Shown here: in pieces, positions 16,697 through 44,909 of the stretch
How the letters are laid out: each line of letters begins with the position of its first letter
How positions within the stretch are numbered: the stretch's first letter is position 1
Source of the DNA: Sphingomonas flavalba
GTDB lineage: Bacteria; Pseudomonadota; Alphaproteobacteria; Sphingomonadales; Sphingomonadaceae
Reading direction: 5' to 3'
Length of the DNA: 64,000 nt
Assembly: GCF_004796535.1 (NCBI RefSeq)
Contig: NZ_SPHY01000002.1
Coordinates: 248,001 to 312,000 of the forward strand
The notes under the pieces: generated by a model
The model's database searches: none
The model's input: the letters and a program-made list of their open reading frames with translations, nothing else
Told to the model about the DNA's origin: nothing
Translations under genes and position numbers: made by a program

Positions 16697-16722
16697 GGAA
16701 CCCCGGCGCGACCGCATTCGTT
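16697..16722 (+). promoter_or_regulatory. EcfG-type general stress promoter ahead of the small protein gene
   Basis: GGAAC at 16697-16701, a 17-base spacer, then CGTT at 16719-16722. This exactly fits the GGAAC-N16/17-CGTT pattern of alphaproteobacterial EcfG promoters. It lies about 40 bp before the start codon of the 82-residue protein and downstream of the acetyltransferase stop, in a non-coding stretch. Confidence 0.65.
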
Positions 16723-35457: not shown

Positions 35458-36219
35458 TCACTCGGCCGGGCCGCCCAGCGCCAGCGCGCTACTGCCGGTG
35501 CGCTCGCGCACGGCCAGCACGTAATCGGCGGACTGCAGGAACGGCATCGGGTTCACCGCCCGTCCGTCGAGCCGCACCTCGTAATGCAGATGCGGGCCGG
35601 TCGACCGGCCGGTCGAACCGACGCGGGCGATCAACTGACCGCGCTTTACCCGCGCGCCGGGCGCAACCAGAATACGCGAAAGATGGCCGTAGCGGGTCTG
35701 AACGCCACGACCGTGGTTTAGCTCGACAAGATTGCCATAGCCACCGTTCCAGCCGGCCCGCTCGACCATGCCGTCGGCGGTCGCGTAGACTTCGGTACCG
35801 GTCGGGCCGGGGATGTCGACGCCGGCATGCATCGCCGCACCGCCACGGAACGGATCGGAACGAACGCCGTACATGCTGCTGAACGCCATTTCAGCAACCG
35901 GCTTGCGCGACGGGACTGCCATCACGCCCTGGCTGGCATTGTCGCTGCGCGACCAGGACTGGAACAGCGCCTTGAACTGCGGGTCGCCAGCGCTCGCGTC
36001 GATCGCTTCGAACGGACCGCCGGTTCCGCCGTCTACGGTCGCGTCGGTCGGCGCTGCCGTTTCGCCAGCGGCAAGAGCCGGCGTGGTCGCGATAAGGCCG
36101 GACAGCGCGGCAGCCCAGATGCAGGCGGAAATCGGGAACCGCACGGCACGGCGATCGTTACAGCTGGACGACAAGAGAACCATAGCGATGCGGCGCGACC
36201 TTTTTCTTGCGCCGCCCAT
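35458..36219 (-). CDS. Secreted M23 family metallopeptidase
   Basis: 253 residues. A hydrophobic signal sequence precedes residue 50; the peptidase M23 (LytM) domain in the C-terminal half has MHAGVDIPGP (HxxxD zinc ligands), RYGHLSRI and HLHYEVRLDG (HxH). All zinc ligands are present, so it is likely an active peptidoglycan endopeptidase rather than an EnvC-like activator. The start is uncertain: GTG/ATG at 36219 has a weak CAGGCG site, ATG at 36183 leaves a shorter signal. Confidence 0.88.
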   Translation of the reverse strand: MGGARKRSRRIAMVLLSSSCNDRRAVRFPISACIWAAALSGLIATTPALAAGETAAPTDATVDGGTGGPFEAIDASAGDPQFKALFQSWSRSDNASQGVMAVPSRKPVAEMAFSSMYGVRSDPFRGGAAMHAGVDIPGPTGTEVYATADGMVERAGWNGGYGNLVELNHGRGVQTRYGHLSRILVAPGARVKRGQLIARVGSTGRSTGPHLHYEVRLDGRAVNPMPFLQSADYVLAVRERTGSSALALGGPAE

Positions 36220-40343: not shown

Positions 40344-40973
40344 TCAGTGCTGGCCGCTCAGCTCGTCGACTTCCGCCATGATCGTATCGAGGGCACTGCG
40401 CCCGCCGTTCGACGGCCCGTCACGCCGTGACGGCAGGGTGCCGCCGTTCAGCAACCCTTCTAGCGCGACACGACCGCGCGCCACCCGGCTCTTGATCGTG
40501 CCGACGGCGACGCCGCAGATCTCCGCCGCTTCCTCGTAGGCGAAACCACCCGCACCGACGAGGATCAGCGCCTCGCGCTGCGGCTGCGGGAGGTGGAGCA
40601 GCGCGCGCTGCATGTCGGCGAGCTCGATCTGCTTGTCCTGTCCGGCCGGTGCCGCGAGGATGCGGTCGGCAACCAGATCGTCCCATTCACCGCGAAAGCG
40701 CGCCCGACGCATTTGCGACAGGTACAGGTTACGCAGGATAATGAAGGTCCAAGCGCGCATGTTGGTGCCCGCCTGAAACCGCTTGCGCGCCGCCCACGCC
40801 TTCATCAGCGTTTCCTGAACGAGATCGTCGGCAGTGTCGCGGTTGCCCGACAATGAGCGCCCGAAGGCGCGCAGATGCGGGATGACCATCGACAATTCCG
40901 TCTTGAAGTCAGCGTCCGACAGGCTTTGGTGCGGCGGCGCCGGCGCCTCGACGCTATCCGATGTCGCAGTCAT
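40344..40973 (-). CDS. ecfG: General stress response sigma factor EcfG
   Basis: 209 residues of the ECF15 group. IPHLRAFGRSLSGNRDTADDLVQETLMKAWAARKRF is region 2, and LPQPQREALILVGAGGFAYEEAAEICGVAVGTIKSRVARGR is region 4. A C-terminal tail of about 30 residues follows. In alphaproteobacteria it is held by NepR and released when phosphorylated PhyR binds NepR. It lies 10 bp after the 44-residue membrane protein gene and shares an EcfG-type promoter with it, giving positive feedback. Confidence 0.95.
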   Translation of the reverse strand: MTATSDSVEAPAPPHQSLSDADFKTELSMVIPHLRAFGRSLSGNRDTADDLVQETLMKAWAARKRFQAGTNMRAWTFIILRNLYLSQMRRARFRGEWDDLVADRILAAPAGQDKQIELADMQRALLHLPQPQREALILVGAGGFAYEEAAEICGVAVGTIKSRVARGRVALEGLLNGGTLPSRRDGPSNGGRSALDTIMAEVDELSGQH

Positions 40974-40983
40974 GCAAGTCCGA

Positions 40984-41118
40984 TCAGTTGACCAGCGCGG
41001 CGGCGATCATCGCCAGCACTGCCAGTGCCAGTGAAATCAGCAGGATATACCGCACGACATGCGGAGTGATCCCGGCGCGCGCTTCGGTCTTGCTGCGATG
41101 TATTTCCTCATCCTGCAT
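40984..41118 (-). CDS. 44-residue single-span membrane protein in the EcfG operon
   Basis: A short gene reading MQDEEIHRSKTEARAGITPH, followed by a hydrophobic span (about residues 24-43) and ending LVN. The charged N-terminus would be cytoplasmic. It sits between phyR and ecfG, 10 bp ahead of ecfG, with an exact EcfG-type promoter 34 bp before its start. The coding potential is supported by position, clean frame and hydrophobic pattern. Function is unknown; it could tune the sigma factor or protect the membrane under stress. Confidence 0.7.
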   Translation of the reverse strand: MQDEEIHRSKTEARAGITPHVVRYILLISLALAVLAMIAAALVN

Positions 41119-41151: not shown

Positions 41152-41176
41152 AACGCCTTTTCACGGGTTGGGTTCC
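41152..41176 (-). promoter_or_regulatory. EcfG-type promoter of the small membrane protein-ecfG operon
   Basis: Read on the minus strand: GGAAC (41176-41172), a 16-base spacer, then CGTT (41155-41152). An exact fit to the general stress consensus. A 6-bp inverted repeat ACGGGT/ACCCGT (41163-41182) overlaps its upstream half and may serve as the end of phyR mRNA. Confidence 0.75.
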
Positions 41177-41184
41177 ACCCGTTT

Positions 41185-41979
41185 CTATGCCGGAACGGTT
41201 TCCGTGTCGAAGAATAGCGCCTGAGCGATCGCCGCCTTCACCGTCGCCCGCTGAAACGGCTTGGTAATCAGGAAGGTCGGCTCCGGCCGCTCCCCGGTCA
41301 GCAGTCGTTCGGGGAAGGCAGTGATGAAGATGACCGGTACGGTGAAGCGGGCCAGGATGTCCTTGACCGCGTCGATGCCGGAACTGTCGTCCGCCAATTG
41401 GATGTCAGCCAGCACCAGCCCCGGCCGATCGGCCAGCGCTTGCGCCACCGCCTCGTCTCGGGTCACGGCGATACCCGTGACGTCGTGGCCCAGATCGCGC
41501 ACGATCGTCTCCAGGTCCATCGCGATGATCGGTTCGTCCTCGATGATCAGCACGCGCGACCGGGTCTGCCGCGCGATCTCGGCGAGCGCATCGGCGACCA
41601 GTTCGTCGACCTCGGCCGGGGTCGAATCGACCAGATAGGCAGCGTCCTCGGCGGTAAACCCTTCCATCGCGGTCAGCAGCAGAGCCTGGCGCGACAGCGG
41701 CGTGATCCGGCTGAGCCGGGCGCTGGCGATGCCTTCGCGCCCCACCGCTTGCGCGCCGCCGTCGTCCAATTCGGGGTTGGCGGAACTCCAGATCGCCTGA
41801 AATGTTCGATAGAGACCAAGCCGTGGGTCGACATCGGCGGGGAACTGCTCCGGCGCCTCGATGATCGCCTCCAGCGCGGCTTTTACGTAGGAATCCCCGT
41901 GGGACTGGCTACCGGTCAGAGCCCGCGCATAGCGGCGCAGGAAGGGCAGATGGGGCGCCAGTTTCTGGCCAAGCGACAT
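41185..41979 (-). CDS. phyR: Anti-anti-sigma response regulator PhyR
   Basis: 264 residues. The N-terminal 130 residues mimic an ECF sigma factor (PHLPFLRRYARALTGSQ and the ITPLSRQALLLTAMEGFTAEDAAYL region), and the C-terminal receiver (about 140-258) carries the phospho-acceptor Asp192 in LVLADIQL, with acidic pair EDE near 147-149 and Lys in FLITKPF. Phosphorylated PhyR sequesters NepR. The ATG at 41979 follows AGGAAC. It diverges from nepR by 210 bp. Confidence 0.96.
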   Translation of the reverse strand: MSLGQKLAPHLPFLRRYARALTGSQSHGDSYVKAALEAIIEAPEQFPADVDPRLGLYRTFQAIWSSANPELDDGGAQAVGREGIASARLSRITPLSRQALLLTAMEGFTAEDAAYLVDSTPAEVDELVADALAEIARQTRSRVLIIEDEPIIAMDLETIVRDLGHDVTGIAVTRDEAVAQALADRPGLVLADIQLADDSSGIDAVKDILARFTVPVIFITAFPERLLTGERPEPTFLITKPFQRATVKAAIAQALFFDTETVPA

Positions 41980-42097
41980 GGGTTCCTGCACTCCTTTTTC
42001 TTGCTGACTCGTCACGCAGCCAAGGGGATTGGGGCAGGCCCTCGCCCCCCGGCCAGAGTTGAATGTCCGCTTTTCACACAGAAAGCGCAATTGACGT

Positions 42098-42122
42098 GGA
42101 ACAAACAAGCGGTGATTTGGTT
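42098..42122 (+). promoter_or_regulatory. Probable EcfG-type promoter of nepR
   Basis: GGAAC at 42098-42102, a 16-base spacer, then GGTT (42119-42122), one mismatch from CGTT. It lies about 68 bp before the nepR start. Autoregulation of nepR by EcfG is usual in alphaproteobacteria. Confidence 0.5.
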
Positions 42123-42189: not shown

Positions 42190-42396
42190 ATGCTGGAAAC
42201 GGCGTACATGAATGGGGGGTCTGCCTTGGTTTCCGACACCGCCAACCGGGCACCGGGCACAAAAGGCAAGAGACGCAGGCGGGATGTCGAAAATGCCAAT
42301 GGCAGCATCGGCCGCGCACTGCGGACGGTGTATCAGCAGGCCGTGGACGAGCGCGTGCCCGACGACATGCTTGAACTTCTGCGGAAGCTGGACTGA
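42190..42396 (+). CDS. nepR: Anti-sigma factor NepR
   Basis: 68 residues. The conserved core IGRALRTVYQQAVDERVPDDMLELLRKLD (about 40-68) consists of two short helices that bind EcfG or PhyR. The N-terminus is long, polar and basic (KGKRRRRD). It stands between divergent phyR and the kinase-like gene, which starts 12 bp later. ATG at 42208 is an alternative start. Confidence 0.93.
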   Translation: MLETAYMNGGSALVSDTANRAPGTKGKRRRRDVENANGSIGRALRTVYQQAVDERVPDDMLELLRKLD

Positions 42397-42408: not shown

Positions 42409-43986
42409 GTGAGCGGCCTGGCGCCCGCGCCCCCCGACGGCATTCTCGACCGACTGGGCCGGCTGTCTACCGCCGCCAAGATGCTGGGCTTGCTCAGTGT
42501 TGCGCTGCTGCCGCTCGGCCTGATCATCCTGCTCGCCTCGCTGCAGACCAGCCGTACCGCCGATCTTGAGCGTCGCGCGGCGCTGCGCGTCGCGCTCAGC
42601 GAAAGCACGCGGAGGGTCGCCTCCGAAATTGCCGTTGATATAGAGGCGATACGCGCCGCGACCCTCGCTCTCGACGCCGGGCAGCCTTCCGAGAGCGTCT
42701 GTACCCGCACCCGGACGGTCATTCACACTGCTGCCGGCGACTCCGCCAGTTTCGTCCTCGTCGACCCGGCCGGCAATCCAATCTGCGGCACGCCGGGGGT
42801 AACAGCGCCAGCACGCGGCAGCGGGCCGCTCGGCCCGCCAGCAACGCTGGTACTCGACGGCAACGTGCTGCAGATCGGGCTGACCGGCGCAATAGGCGGC
42901 CATGCCGGCGCCGTCGCGCTGACCACAAACCAGCTCGCCCGCCTCGCACGCCCGCTCGACTTCCAGCTACCCTACCGGCTCGAGATGTCTGACGGTCGCC
43001 ATGTCGCCGTCCTCGCCGACACCGCCCGCCTGCCGCCGCTCTCCCGGTCGGAGGAGATGACCAACCGAATCCGCAATACCGACCTGGCGCTGACAATGCA
43101 GGTCCGGGCAATCCCGCTGACCCCGCCACAACTGCTGACCATGCTCGTGCCGTTACTGATGTGGGTGGCAGCCTCGCTGATCGGCTGGCTGGTCGTCGAC
43201 CGGCTGGTGCTGCGGCCACTGGCGGAACTGCGCGCCGCGATCGAATCCTTCCAGCCGGGCGAGCCGTTCGGCGAAGGGCGCAAGCTCGCCACGCCGGCCC
43301 GCGAGATCCGTGCGCTCGGCGACACGTTCAGGACGATCACCGAATCGCTCGCCGCGCACGAAACCGAGCTGGCGCTCGGCCTGCGCGAACAGACCCGGCT
43401 GACCCGCGAGGTCCACCACCGGGTCAAGAACAACCTTCAGATCATCGCCAGCCTGATCAACCTGCACGCGCGCGGCGCAAAGTCGGCTGAAACCATCGCC
43501 GCCTATGCGTCGATCCAGCGGCGCGTCGACGCCCTCGCCGTCGTCCACCGCAACCATTATGCGGAGCTGGAGAACAGCCGCGGCGTCGCCCTTCGGCCGC
43601 TGGTCGGCGAAATCGCCGCCAGCCTGCGGGCGACTGCGCCGACGGCGTCGGGCATGGAGCTGAGCGTCGAGGCGACGGCGGATCACGTCACCCAGGATGT
43701 CGCGGTCGCGCTCGCCTTCCTGATCACCGAACTGGTCGAACTGGCGATGCTGACCGACCCGACCGCCGCGATCCGCATCACCGTCACCGCGACCGACGCG
43801 CCGGGGCAAAGCCGGCTGACCATCACCTCCGCCGCGTTTACCGACAGCCGCCGCCTGCGCGCCCGGCTCGATGAACGCTATGGCCGGGTGCTGGAGGGAC
43901 TGGCCCGCCAGTTGCGCGCGCCGCTCCATGTCGACCCGCTATCGTCCAGCTACGCCATTGTTTTCACGCGGATGGCCGGCAGTTGA
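42409..43986 (+). CDS. phyP: PhyP-like HisKA_2 sensor protein with degenerate ATPase domain
   Basis: 525 residues. Two spans (about 25-45 and 243-263) flank a periplasmic sensor, then a HAMP-like linker and the HisKA_2 motif LTREVHHRVKNNLQ with His336/337. The expected N box is LITELVELAMLTD at 438-450, without the metal-binding Asn, and no DxGxG or GxGxG loops follow, so ATP binding is doubtful. In Sphingomonas strain Fr1, PhyP from the same locus acts as a negative regulator of PhyR, consistent with phosphatase but no kinase activity. The start is GTG. It is probably cotranscribed with nepR. Confidence 0.83.
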   Translation: MSGLAPAPPDGILDRLGRLSTAAKMLGLLSVALLPLGLIILLASLQTSRTADLERRAALRVALSESTRRVASEIAVDIEAIRAATLALDAGQPSESVCTRTRTVIHTAAGDSASFVLVDPAGNPICGTPGVTAPARGSGPLGPPATLVLDGNVLQIGLTGAIGGHAGAVALTTNQLARLARPLDFQLPYRLEMSDGRHVAVLADTARLPPLSRSEEMTNRIRNTDLALTMQVRAIPLTPPQLLTMLVPLLMWVAASLIGWLVVDRLVLRPLAELRAAIESFQPGEPFGEGRKLATPAREIRALGDTFRTITESLAAHETELALGLREQTRLTREVHHRVKNNLQIIASLINLHARGAKSAETIAAYASIQRRVDALAVVHRNHYAELENSRGVALRPLVGEIAASLRATAPTASGMELSVEATADHVTQDVAVALAFLITELVELAMLTDPTAAIRITVTATDAPGQSRLTITSAAFTDSRRLRARLDERYGRVLEGLARQLRAPLHVDPLSSSYAIVFTRMAGS

Positions 43987-44017
43987 TCGTGCCGTTCCGA
44001 AAAATGCGAAAATGCCG

Positions 44018-44042
44018 GGAACCCGCCCTCACATCGGGCGTT
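44018..44042 (+). promoter_or_regulatory. Exact EcfG-type promoter downstream of phyP
   Basis: GGAAC at 44018-44022, 16-base spacer, CGTT at 44039-44042. It begins 32 bp after the phyP stop and drives toward 44049 onward, where there is no open frame until 44235. It is followed by a strong terminator-like hairpin. Confidence 0.72.
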
Positions 44043-44048
44043 CTACGG

Positions 44049-44151
44049 CACGGATAGTGACCTTTTGCCCCCCGCTCTCGCTATCCAAGGAACGGACCCG
44101 GAGTCGTCGCCATCCCCCCCGGCGGCGGTTCCGGGTCCAATTCGTTTATTT
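44049..44151 (+). ncRNA. Candidate stress-induced small RNA
   Basis: The segment runs from the expected start just after the promoter at 44018-44042 to a hairpin at 44094-44138. The arms, 44094-44111 and 44121-44138, pair over 18 positions with three G-T pairs around a nine-base C-rich loop. The tail AATTCGTTTATTT follows. This gives a transcript of about 100 nt with a pyrimidine-rich 5' part (CCTTTTGCCCCCC). No coding sequence fits. Caulobacter GsrN is a known sRNA of the same regulon; I cannot compare sequences here. Confidence 0.5.
44094..44151 (+). terminator. Strong terminator-like hairpin after the candidate small RNA
   Basis: GGACCCGGAGTCGTCGCC (44094-44111) pairs with the segment at 44121-44138 as a continuous 18-position stem. 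The following stretch has seven T residues in eleven bases. It would separate the small RNA from the entericidin gene. Confidence 0.65.
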
Positions 44152-44158
44152 CGGTATC

Positions 44159-44183
44159 GGAACGAAATGCGCGCCCGCGCATT
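44159..44183 (+). promoter_or_regulatory. Possible EcfG-type promoter of the entericidin gene
   Basis: GGAAC at 44159-44163, 16-base spacer, CATT at 44180-44183, one mismatch from CGTT. It lies about 50 bp ahead of the lipoprotein start, just after the terminator-like hairpin. Confidence 0.45.
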
Positions 44184-44234
44184 GTCTCCTTCACGCCTCC
44201 CCGGCTGGGGAGCCATAGGACGAGGAGACAGGAT

Positions 44235-44366
44235 ATGACCCGTAAGATCATCGCCGTGGCGCTGGTCGCCGCTGCGTTCGCCGTGTCGGCGTGCAATACG
44301 GTTTCCGGCGCCGGCGACGACCTGAAATCCGCCAGCCAGGAAACCAAGGACGCGATCAACAAGTAA
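44235..44366 (+). CDS. ecnA: Entericidin A/B family lipoprotein
   Basis: 43 residues, starting MTRKIIAVALVAAAFAVSAC: a short lipoprotein signal with Cys20 as the lipidated residue in VSAC. The remainder NTVSGAGDDLKSASQETKDAINK is the entericidin helix. GAGGAGACAGGAT gives a strong ribosome site. Entericidins are small membrane-associated lipoproteins, often stress induced. It is convergent with the DUF6456 gene. Confidence 0.85.
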   Translation: MTRKIIAVALVAAAFAVSACNTVSGAGDDLKSASQETKDAINK

Positions 44367-44387
44367 ACCGACGCGCCCTTCGCCGGA

Positions 44388-44909
44388 TCAGCGCGGGCGG
44401 CCCCCCGCCCCGCCGATCCGGTAGAAATCGGCGAGCCGGTCGAGCGCCAGGCCAAGCACCAGCTTGCCCGCCCGCGCCGGCCAACCCAGCGCCCGCTCCG
44501 CCGGTGCCAGTCCCTCGCCGGCGCACACGACCCGCCAGGCGATGTCGGCGAGGCCGGGGCCCACCGCGGCGATCGCCGCCTCGAACCGCCTCTTGGCATC
44601 GAGTGCGGCCAGCGCCGGATCGGGCGCCGCCCCGCCCCGATCACCCCGCCCCGCTCCGTCCCAGCGCATTGTCACTCGCGGCGCCAGCCCGGCACGCTCC
44701 CAGTCGGCACGCAATTGCTCGCTGGCGTCGAACTGGCGGGCGCTCAGCCGCCCGCGTGCGCGCAGCCAGACCAGCGGCGATTCCGCCACGTTCACCGTCA
44801 CCACCCGCGTCGCCGCCGCACCCGCCCGGTCTTCTGCCCCGCCGTCCGCGCGCACCGCCCGTTCCGCCAGCAACCGCGCCCCGTCCCGCCTGATCCCGCT
44901 CGTCGCCAT
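44388..44909 (-). CDS. DUF6456 domain protein
   Basis: 173 residues. ESPLVWLRARGRLSARQFDASEQLRADWERAGLAPRVTMRWD is the conserved central block found in small alphaproteobacterial proteins of this type, followed by a helical part with RFEAAIAAVGPGLADIAWRVVCAGEGL. The layout resembles a helix-turn-helix protein that may regulate genes or replace a phage-like regulator. It diverges from an XRE-type regulator with about 104 bp between starts. No function is known. Confidence 0.75.
   Translation of the reverse strand: MATSGIRRDGARLLAERAVRADGGAEDRAGAAATRVVTVNVAESPLVWLRARGRLSARQFDASEQLRADWERAGLAPRVTMRWDGAGRGDRGGAAPDPALAALDAKRRFEAAIAAVGPGLADIAWRVVCAGEGLAPAERALGWPARAGKLVLGLALDRLADFYRIGGAGGRPR

Follow-up and report, generated by a model that had tools for sequence, protein, structure and literature searches.

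Does the DNA beside the PhyR-NepR-EcfG module of Sphingomonas flavalba encode a small RNA of the general stress response? An initial annotation had proposed such a gene, transcribed from an EcfG-type promoter, and we examined the proposal in a window of 64,000 nt (NZ_SPHY01000002.1, 248,001-312,000; all window coordinates are relative to it). The module and the features discussed below are collected in Table 1. The flanking 899-aa ORF is presumably GlnE, and the 43-aa lipoprotein ORF, which matches no Pfam or NCBIfam family, we take to be entericidin-like, the name given in the initial annotation.

Promoter and predicted transcript

The exact GGAAC-N16-CGTT promoter previously claimed is present (P1, GGAACCCGCCCTCACATCGGGCGTT). 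GGAAC-N16-CGTT likewise characterizes the EcfG regulon in another sphingomonad, Sphingopyxis granuli. The regulon promoters that served there as templates in vitro include some with CATT, TGTT and GGTT boxes, and transcript yield from CGTT exceeded that from CATT or TGTT (PMC7083833). On its own, the P1 motif is modest evidence, since GGAAC-N16/17-CGTT occurs four times in the window versus 0.79 expected and 2 of 100 shuffles reach that count. Further matches lie at 16697-16722 (+) and 36135-36159 (+). Within the module, an exact EcfG-type promoter (41152-41176, −) stands ahead of a 44-aa ORF and ecfG, and GGAAC-N16-GGTT (42098-42122, +) stands ahead of nepR; both likely reflect autoregulation of the PhyR-NepR-EcfG module, as judged from sequence.

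Table 1. Stress-module genes, promoters and predicted RNA elements in the window.
Feature	Coordinates	Strand	Basis
ECF sigma factor (EcfG)	40344-40973	−	position and similarity to PhyR_sigma2
PhyR response regulator	41185-41985	−	Pfam PhyR domains and NCBIfam PhyR family
NepR anti-sigma factor	42190-42396	+	Pfam NepR, 9.2e-11
HisKA_2/HWE-kinase-type protein (phyP of the initial annotation)	42409-43986	+	domain matches
P1, EcfG-type promoter of the sRNA, GGAAC-N16-CGTT	44018-44042	+	motif match
Predicted sRNA, ~100 nt, ends by prediction	44048-44151	+	fold and comparative matches
Hairpin 1, 9-bp stem (44052-44060/44078-44086), C-rich loop (44061-44077)	44052-44086	+	fold, covariation
Hairpin 2, 18 bp (44094-44111/44121-44138), C-rich 9-nt loop, terminator-like	44094-44138	+	fold
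P2, EcfG-like promoter GGAAC-N16-CATT, between predicted sRNA and lipoprotein gene	44159-44183	+	
43-aa lipoprotein ORF	44235-44366	+	similar ORF recurs 3′ of the sRNA

The RNA predicted downstream of P1 folds with an energy of −48.7 kcal/mol (z −5.2), which none of 200 shuffles equalled. Its 5′ hairpin, with the loop CCUUUUGCCCCCCGCUC, proved to be the most conserved feature of the locus, and is absent from the initial description. That description centered on an 18-position hairpin about 50 bp past the promoter with a T-rich tail. The hairpin exists as hairpin 2, beginning 51 bases past the −10 box; the tail (44139-44151, AATTCGTTTATTT) is T-rich but interrupted. A consensus terminator scan, which admits loops of 3-8 nt only, reported no plus-strand terminator here. 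The accompanying claim that no open frame lies in this stretch does not hold, as mechanical ORFs cross it at 43871-44218 (+), 44065-44238 (+), 44043-44216 (−) and 44081-44644 (−).

Conservation of the RNA, its promoter and its neighborhood

The initial annotation had suggested looking for conservation 3′ of phyP in other sphingomonads, and the searches were positive. A BLASTN search of the family's 397 genomes with positions 44000-44240 returned 98 matches at E≤1e-4, the window's own genome included. These cover approximately 44051-44148, many starting at query positions 50-54 (44049-44053) and ending near 136-148, and are thus centered on the predicted transcript. When the window was aligned with 29 relatives, CGGATAGYGACCTTTTGCCCCCCCGCTCTCGCTATCC was nearly invariant and 13 of 23 consensus pairs showed two-sided changes. 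Two covariance models were then used, R1 for the RNA without its promoter and R2 for promoter plus RNA. R1 matched 156 of 397 family genomes in 42 of 96 genera at E≤0.01, in a search whose filters lose weak matches and whose E-values are rough, and R2 matched 168 of 397 genomes in 43 of 96 genera at E≤1e-3. The window itself is matched over 44049-44145 by R1 and 44016-44147 by R2. We refer to RNAs of this kind as type A.

A wider set was assembled from 40 stretches of 4.7-13 kb, fetched from 38 genera. R1 gave 53 matches on these stretches and the window, of which 41 were the primary match of their source; the other 12, comprising L067:10903 and 11 opposite-strand counterparts at the same position, were left unused. 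Alignment with the promoter region yielded 39 rows (A3), L099 and L100 being left out because they have no promoter. With the structure taken from the consensus of the same rows, 24 of 25 pairs in A3 show two-sided changes and 92.3% of cells pair, versus 30-45% in a control in which partners were slid. None of 500 shuffles, which ignore relatedness, reached any of five measures. Two-sided change extends to all nine pairs of hairpin 1 and to 15 of the 16 modeled pairs of hairpin 2. Divergent members (L063, L080, L095, L101 and L102) have different stem sequences, with the C-rich loop and promoter kept. L101 and L102, in genomes G224 and G216, are second type A copies far from the first, with EcfG-type promoter and fold kept; our reading, from sequence, is that they make up a small family of sibling sRNAs.

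Beyond the family, R2 was run on 289 genomes of the class and gave strong matches in two family members only, one of them the window's genome. Four weak matches outside the family (L225-L228) were not accepted as members. The best of them, L225 (G521:C15:30640-30755, +; 31.6 bits), has a C7-loop hairpin and a terminator without GGAAC and may be a comparable C-loop sRNA expressed from a different kind of promoter. A second R2 match in the window's own genome, L229 (G000:C15:14125-14251, −), was likewise not accepted. There, an 11-codon ORF and then a terminator-like hairpin lie downstream of a GGAAC-N16-CGTT promoter, an arrangement that may give another short transcript driven by EcfG.

The promoter is conserved along with the RNA. 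By alignment column, GGAAC occurs in 35 of the 39 A3 rows, and in L074 and L090 shifted by one column; L075 has GAAAC and L069 GCAAC. The −10 box is CGTT in 26 rows, GGTT in nine, TGTT in three and AGTT in one. For a test free of the promoter itself, contigs were scanned for the hairpin core alone, giving at least 120 named stretches, some from genomes shared with the other sets. The matches listed come from Sphingomonas, Sphingomicrobium, Sphingosinicella, Allosphingosinicella, Stakelama, Parasphingopyxis, Sphingorhabdus, Sphingosinithalassobacter and Sphingobium boeckii, and from MAGs named Sphingomonadaceae, Sphingomonadales, Alphaproteobacteria or Proteobacteria; the culturable species Sphingomonas pituitosa, S. 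leidyi and Stakelama pacifica are among the carriers. One of the 120 listed sites is too close to an edge to score. All 119 scorable sites among the matches listed carry GGAAC-N16/17 and a CGTT-like box ending 21-23 nt 5′ of the core, versus 41 of 5950 random places. In these listed sites the spacer is N16 in 97 and N17 in 22, and the −10 box is CGTT in 105, TGTT in eight, GGTT in four and CATT in two.

Because of this conservation we regard the locus as more than a chance arrangement, and the stretch is in all likelihood a genuine small-RNA gene, common to many relatives with the same promoter and shape. The contrary possibility, that the hairpins merely end the nepR-kinase transcript or that the stretch encodes a small protein, could draw on the crossing ORFs and on hairpin 2, which could also end an upstream transcript. 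It sits poorly with a promoter at nearly fixed distance and with a hairpin 1 conserved with covariation. Plus-strand coding is further disfavored because the longest C-run of the 5′ part ranges from 4 to 8 among 39 relatives, and we consider this explanation very improbable.

The neighborhood recurs as well. As far as tblastn resolves, the fetched loci keep the gene order of the window. EcfG and PhyR genes lie inside the stretch in 25 of 40 (the other 15 are without them, some of these stretches ending at contig ends), a HisKA_2/HWE kinase in 26 of 40, and the short NepR was detected in 15 of 40. The kinase is also present in 109 of the 120 named stretches among the matches listed from the hairpin-core scan. 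Relatives of the 44-aa ORF, which lies between ecfG and phyR at window positions 40984-41118 (−) and has no Pfam or NCBIfam match, were found by tblastn in 19 of 40 loci; in L068 this ORF adjoins the sRNA, and neither EcfG nor PhyR was found in that stretch.

The lipoprotein gene raises the question of whether the two hairpins are instead its cis-acting leader or attenuator, with transcription from P1 reading through both and the hairpins controlling read-through. A lipoprotein ORF does follow the RNA in 32 of 41 loci, including L068, L075, L077, L080 and L090, where neither EcfG nor PhyR was found nearby. However, a P2-like site lies no more than 70 nt from the RNA end in 22 of these 32 loci, a count made without a chance control, and so intervenes between RNA and ORF (−10 box CATT in 20, CGTT in one and TATT in one). 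Hairpin 2 also resembles a terminator. Moreover, L065, L084 and L091 keep promoter and fold with no lipoprotein ORF found within 450 nt, and the second copies L101 and L102 are situated elsewhere; both observations speak for a separate RNA over a lipoprotein leader. We therefore judge the leader explanation improbable.

A second RNA type and its link with PhyR

Twenty family genomes without an R2 match were opened and searched for PhyR at 1e-40. Five had no match, 14 encoded a PhyR 54-59% identical to that of the window, and one encoded a PhyR 79% identical. A differently built RNA, here type B, was present in 13 of the 15 PhyR-bearing stress loci of these R2-negative genomes (L246-L258), upstream of phyR and divergent from it, at a distance of about 1 kb in L253. 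Its promoter has GGAAC in 13 of 13 loci, with a −10 box of CATT in 11, GGTT in one and CTTT in one. The RNA consists of a hairpin, TGTCACCGCCGAGACCCCCC(C)TCCCGTCCAAGCGGC-GGTGACA, whose loop contains CCCUCCC, followed by CGATCCCGAA and a GC-rich terminator with a T-run. A covariance model of type B, R3, matched 163 of 397 family genomes in 46 of 96 genera at E≤1e-3.

The two types hardly overlap. At E≤1e-6, type A is found in 164 and type B in 155 of the 397 genomes, either in 319 and both in none, where independence would predict an overlap of 64, phylogeny being uncorrected. This count omits the R2 matches in G003, G096, G158 and G178 and the R3 matches in G244, G292, G301, G355, G359, G361, G375 and G387. 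At E≤1e-3, either type is found in 323 genomes and both in eight, in each of which one of the two matches falls short of 1e-6. Which type a genome carries goes with PhyR similarity, with best identities to the window's PhyR of 72-82% in 13 type A genomes and 55-59% in 13 type B genomes, so that a few ancient independent events may explain the mutual exclusivity.

Carriage of either RNA also goes together with PhyR, which was matched in 26 of 26 sampled carriers (13 per type) and in the 13 type B genomes of the R2-negative set. Neither RNA was found in 74 of 397 genomes at E≤1e-3, and for 42 of these a PhyR search at 1e-40 gave nothing (5 of 7 in the R2-negative set above, 37 of 67 in the rest). 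The remaining 32 have a PhyR match and neither RNA at E≤1e-3, for which diverged RNAs, filter losses, incomplete genomes and true absence are all candidate explanations.

Overall, sequence and structure conservation, the promoter present at every scorable site among the matches listed, the neighborhood and the PhyR link among sampled carriers support the proposal of an sRNA gene with an EcfG-type promoter beside PhyR-NepR-EcfG.

Likeness to known RNAs and candidate targets

The closest described parallel is GsrN of Caulobacter crescentus, an RNA of about 100 nt transcribed from a sigma-T promoter, with a 5′ loop containing six cytosines and a 3′ intrinsic terminator (Tien et al. 2018, PMC5869019). 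Through this loop it base-pairs with G-rich targets, among them the katG leader. The same source predicts GsrN-like RNAs in Rhizobiaceae, Brucella, Rhodopseudomonas and Bradyrhizobium, describes homologs as typically near ecfG-nepR-phyR, reports gsrN BLASTN matches as confined to Caulobacteraceae, and marks Erythrobacter litoralis, the sphingomonad relative in its survey, as without an apparent gsrN-like gene (PMC5869019). By prediction, the window RNA resembles GsrN as described there in its length of about 100 nt, its EcfG promoter (GGAAC, CGTT), its 5′ C-tract loop and its 3′ terminator-like hairpin, and it adjoins ecfG-nepR-phyR, as do its counterparts in 25 of the 40 fetched loci. Unlike GsrN, it comes from a different clade, and the two are likened here by described anatomy.

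Other known RNAs offer less. No Rfam family reached its gathering score in the window or in any of seven related stretches, of which four carry type A or its copies and three type B. A weak match to ar7 (RF02342) scores 25.1 bits over the whole model (E 0.0027 for 261 bases searched), and was rejected since the gathering score is 60 and the match starts at 43995, 5′ of P1; sub-threshold matches to CrfA and other Rfam families were rejected as well. The CcsR or "cuckoo" RNAs of Alphaproteobacteria have C-rich loops, a two-hairpin design, RpoH-driven expression and a CCUCCUCCC motif. The window's RNA shares the C-rich loops and two hairpins but lacks the CCUCCUCCC motif, and type B has CCCUCCC. 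SuhB of Sphingopyxis granuli is an experimentally shown sRNA of 61 nt, growth-rate controlled and acting on thnR; compared by description, it and the window's predicted RNA are both sphingomonad sRNAs, and the account of SuhB states no EcfG link (PMC6563040). In the main texts of the open-access literature searched, no description of a type A or type B RNA was found. We file the RNA as a new family built like GsrN, a likeness of anatomy and not a claim of common descent.

We regard a trans-acting, GsrN-like antisense sRNA gene of the general stress response, driven by EcfG and replaced by type B in many other genomes of the family, as the probable explanation of the locus. PhyR would free EcfG from NepR, and EcfG-RNA polymerase would then transcribe about 100 nt from P1, as the promoter suggests. 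The 5′ hairpin, predicted and backed by covariation, would present the C-rich loop, and the transcript would end at hairpin 2. By analogy with GsrN acting on katG in Caulobacter, the loop may pair with G-rich mRNA stretches and alter their translation or stability. Many other family genomes have instead, near phyR, the differently built type B RNA with its EcfG-type promoter, and the two RNAs seem to fill the same slot.

Candidate targets were sought with the 14-base loop complement, allowing up to two mismatches, in six genomes, with the reversed pattern as control. There was no overall excess (165 sites versus 176 for the control across the six genomes); G148 had 37 versus 16 and G081 23 versus 20, and the other four fell below control. 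When duplex energies were computed at six stress-locus genes, only the nepR start region stood out, beating local background. Across 16 loci its median percentile was 0.18, with four loci at ≤0.05 and a KS p of 0.003, in a post hoc test uncorrected for the six genes, with uncertain start codons and non-independent relatives. The 5′ part of nepR contains a G-tract (ATGAATGGGGGG, window 42214-42225, +), and several relatives also have G-tracts close to the nepR start; the window's tract is a possible target of the C-loop. In Caulobacter, the nepR-sigT RNA region co-purified with GsrN (PMC5869019).

The absence of any target in the loop-complement scan of six genomes suits a different mode of action, in which an EcfG-driven sRNA would sponge up another RNA or act as a protein decoy, for instance for Hfq or a regulator of the CsrA kind; the C-rich loops on both hairpins could, we infer, serve several partners. 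Yet a conserved C-tract loop is the type of element that GsrN is described as using for mRNA pairing (PMC5869019), and we hold this mode to be improbable too, if anything slightly more so than the lipoprotein leader. Antisense action on mRNAs thus stays our preferred reading. A bolder extension, which we put forward as speculative and rather doubtful, is that an sRNA arm is near-obligatory in the general stress response of this family, supplied by either of two mutually exclusive EcfG-promoter RNAs that lie near the stress-response genes, show a C-tract loop and are apparently unrelated or diverged beyond recognition, and that at least the type A loop acts on the G-rich start of the nepR mRNA and so provides feedback on the anti-sigma factor.

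EcfG-driven sRNAs are known from Caulobacteraceae, with predicted examples in certain other Alphaproteobacteria, according to PMC5869019. With promoters, structures and carriers defined for two RNA families, the post-transcriptional side of the stress response in sphingomonads can be tested directly, and types A and B offer a natural comparison of two RNAs seemingly in the same slot.
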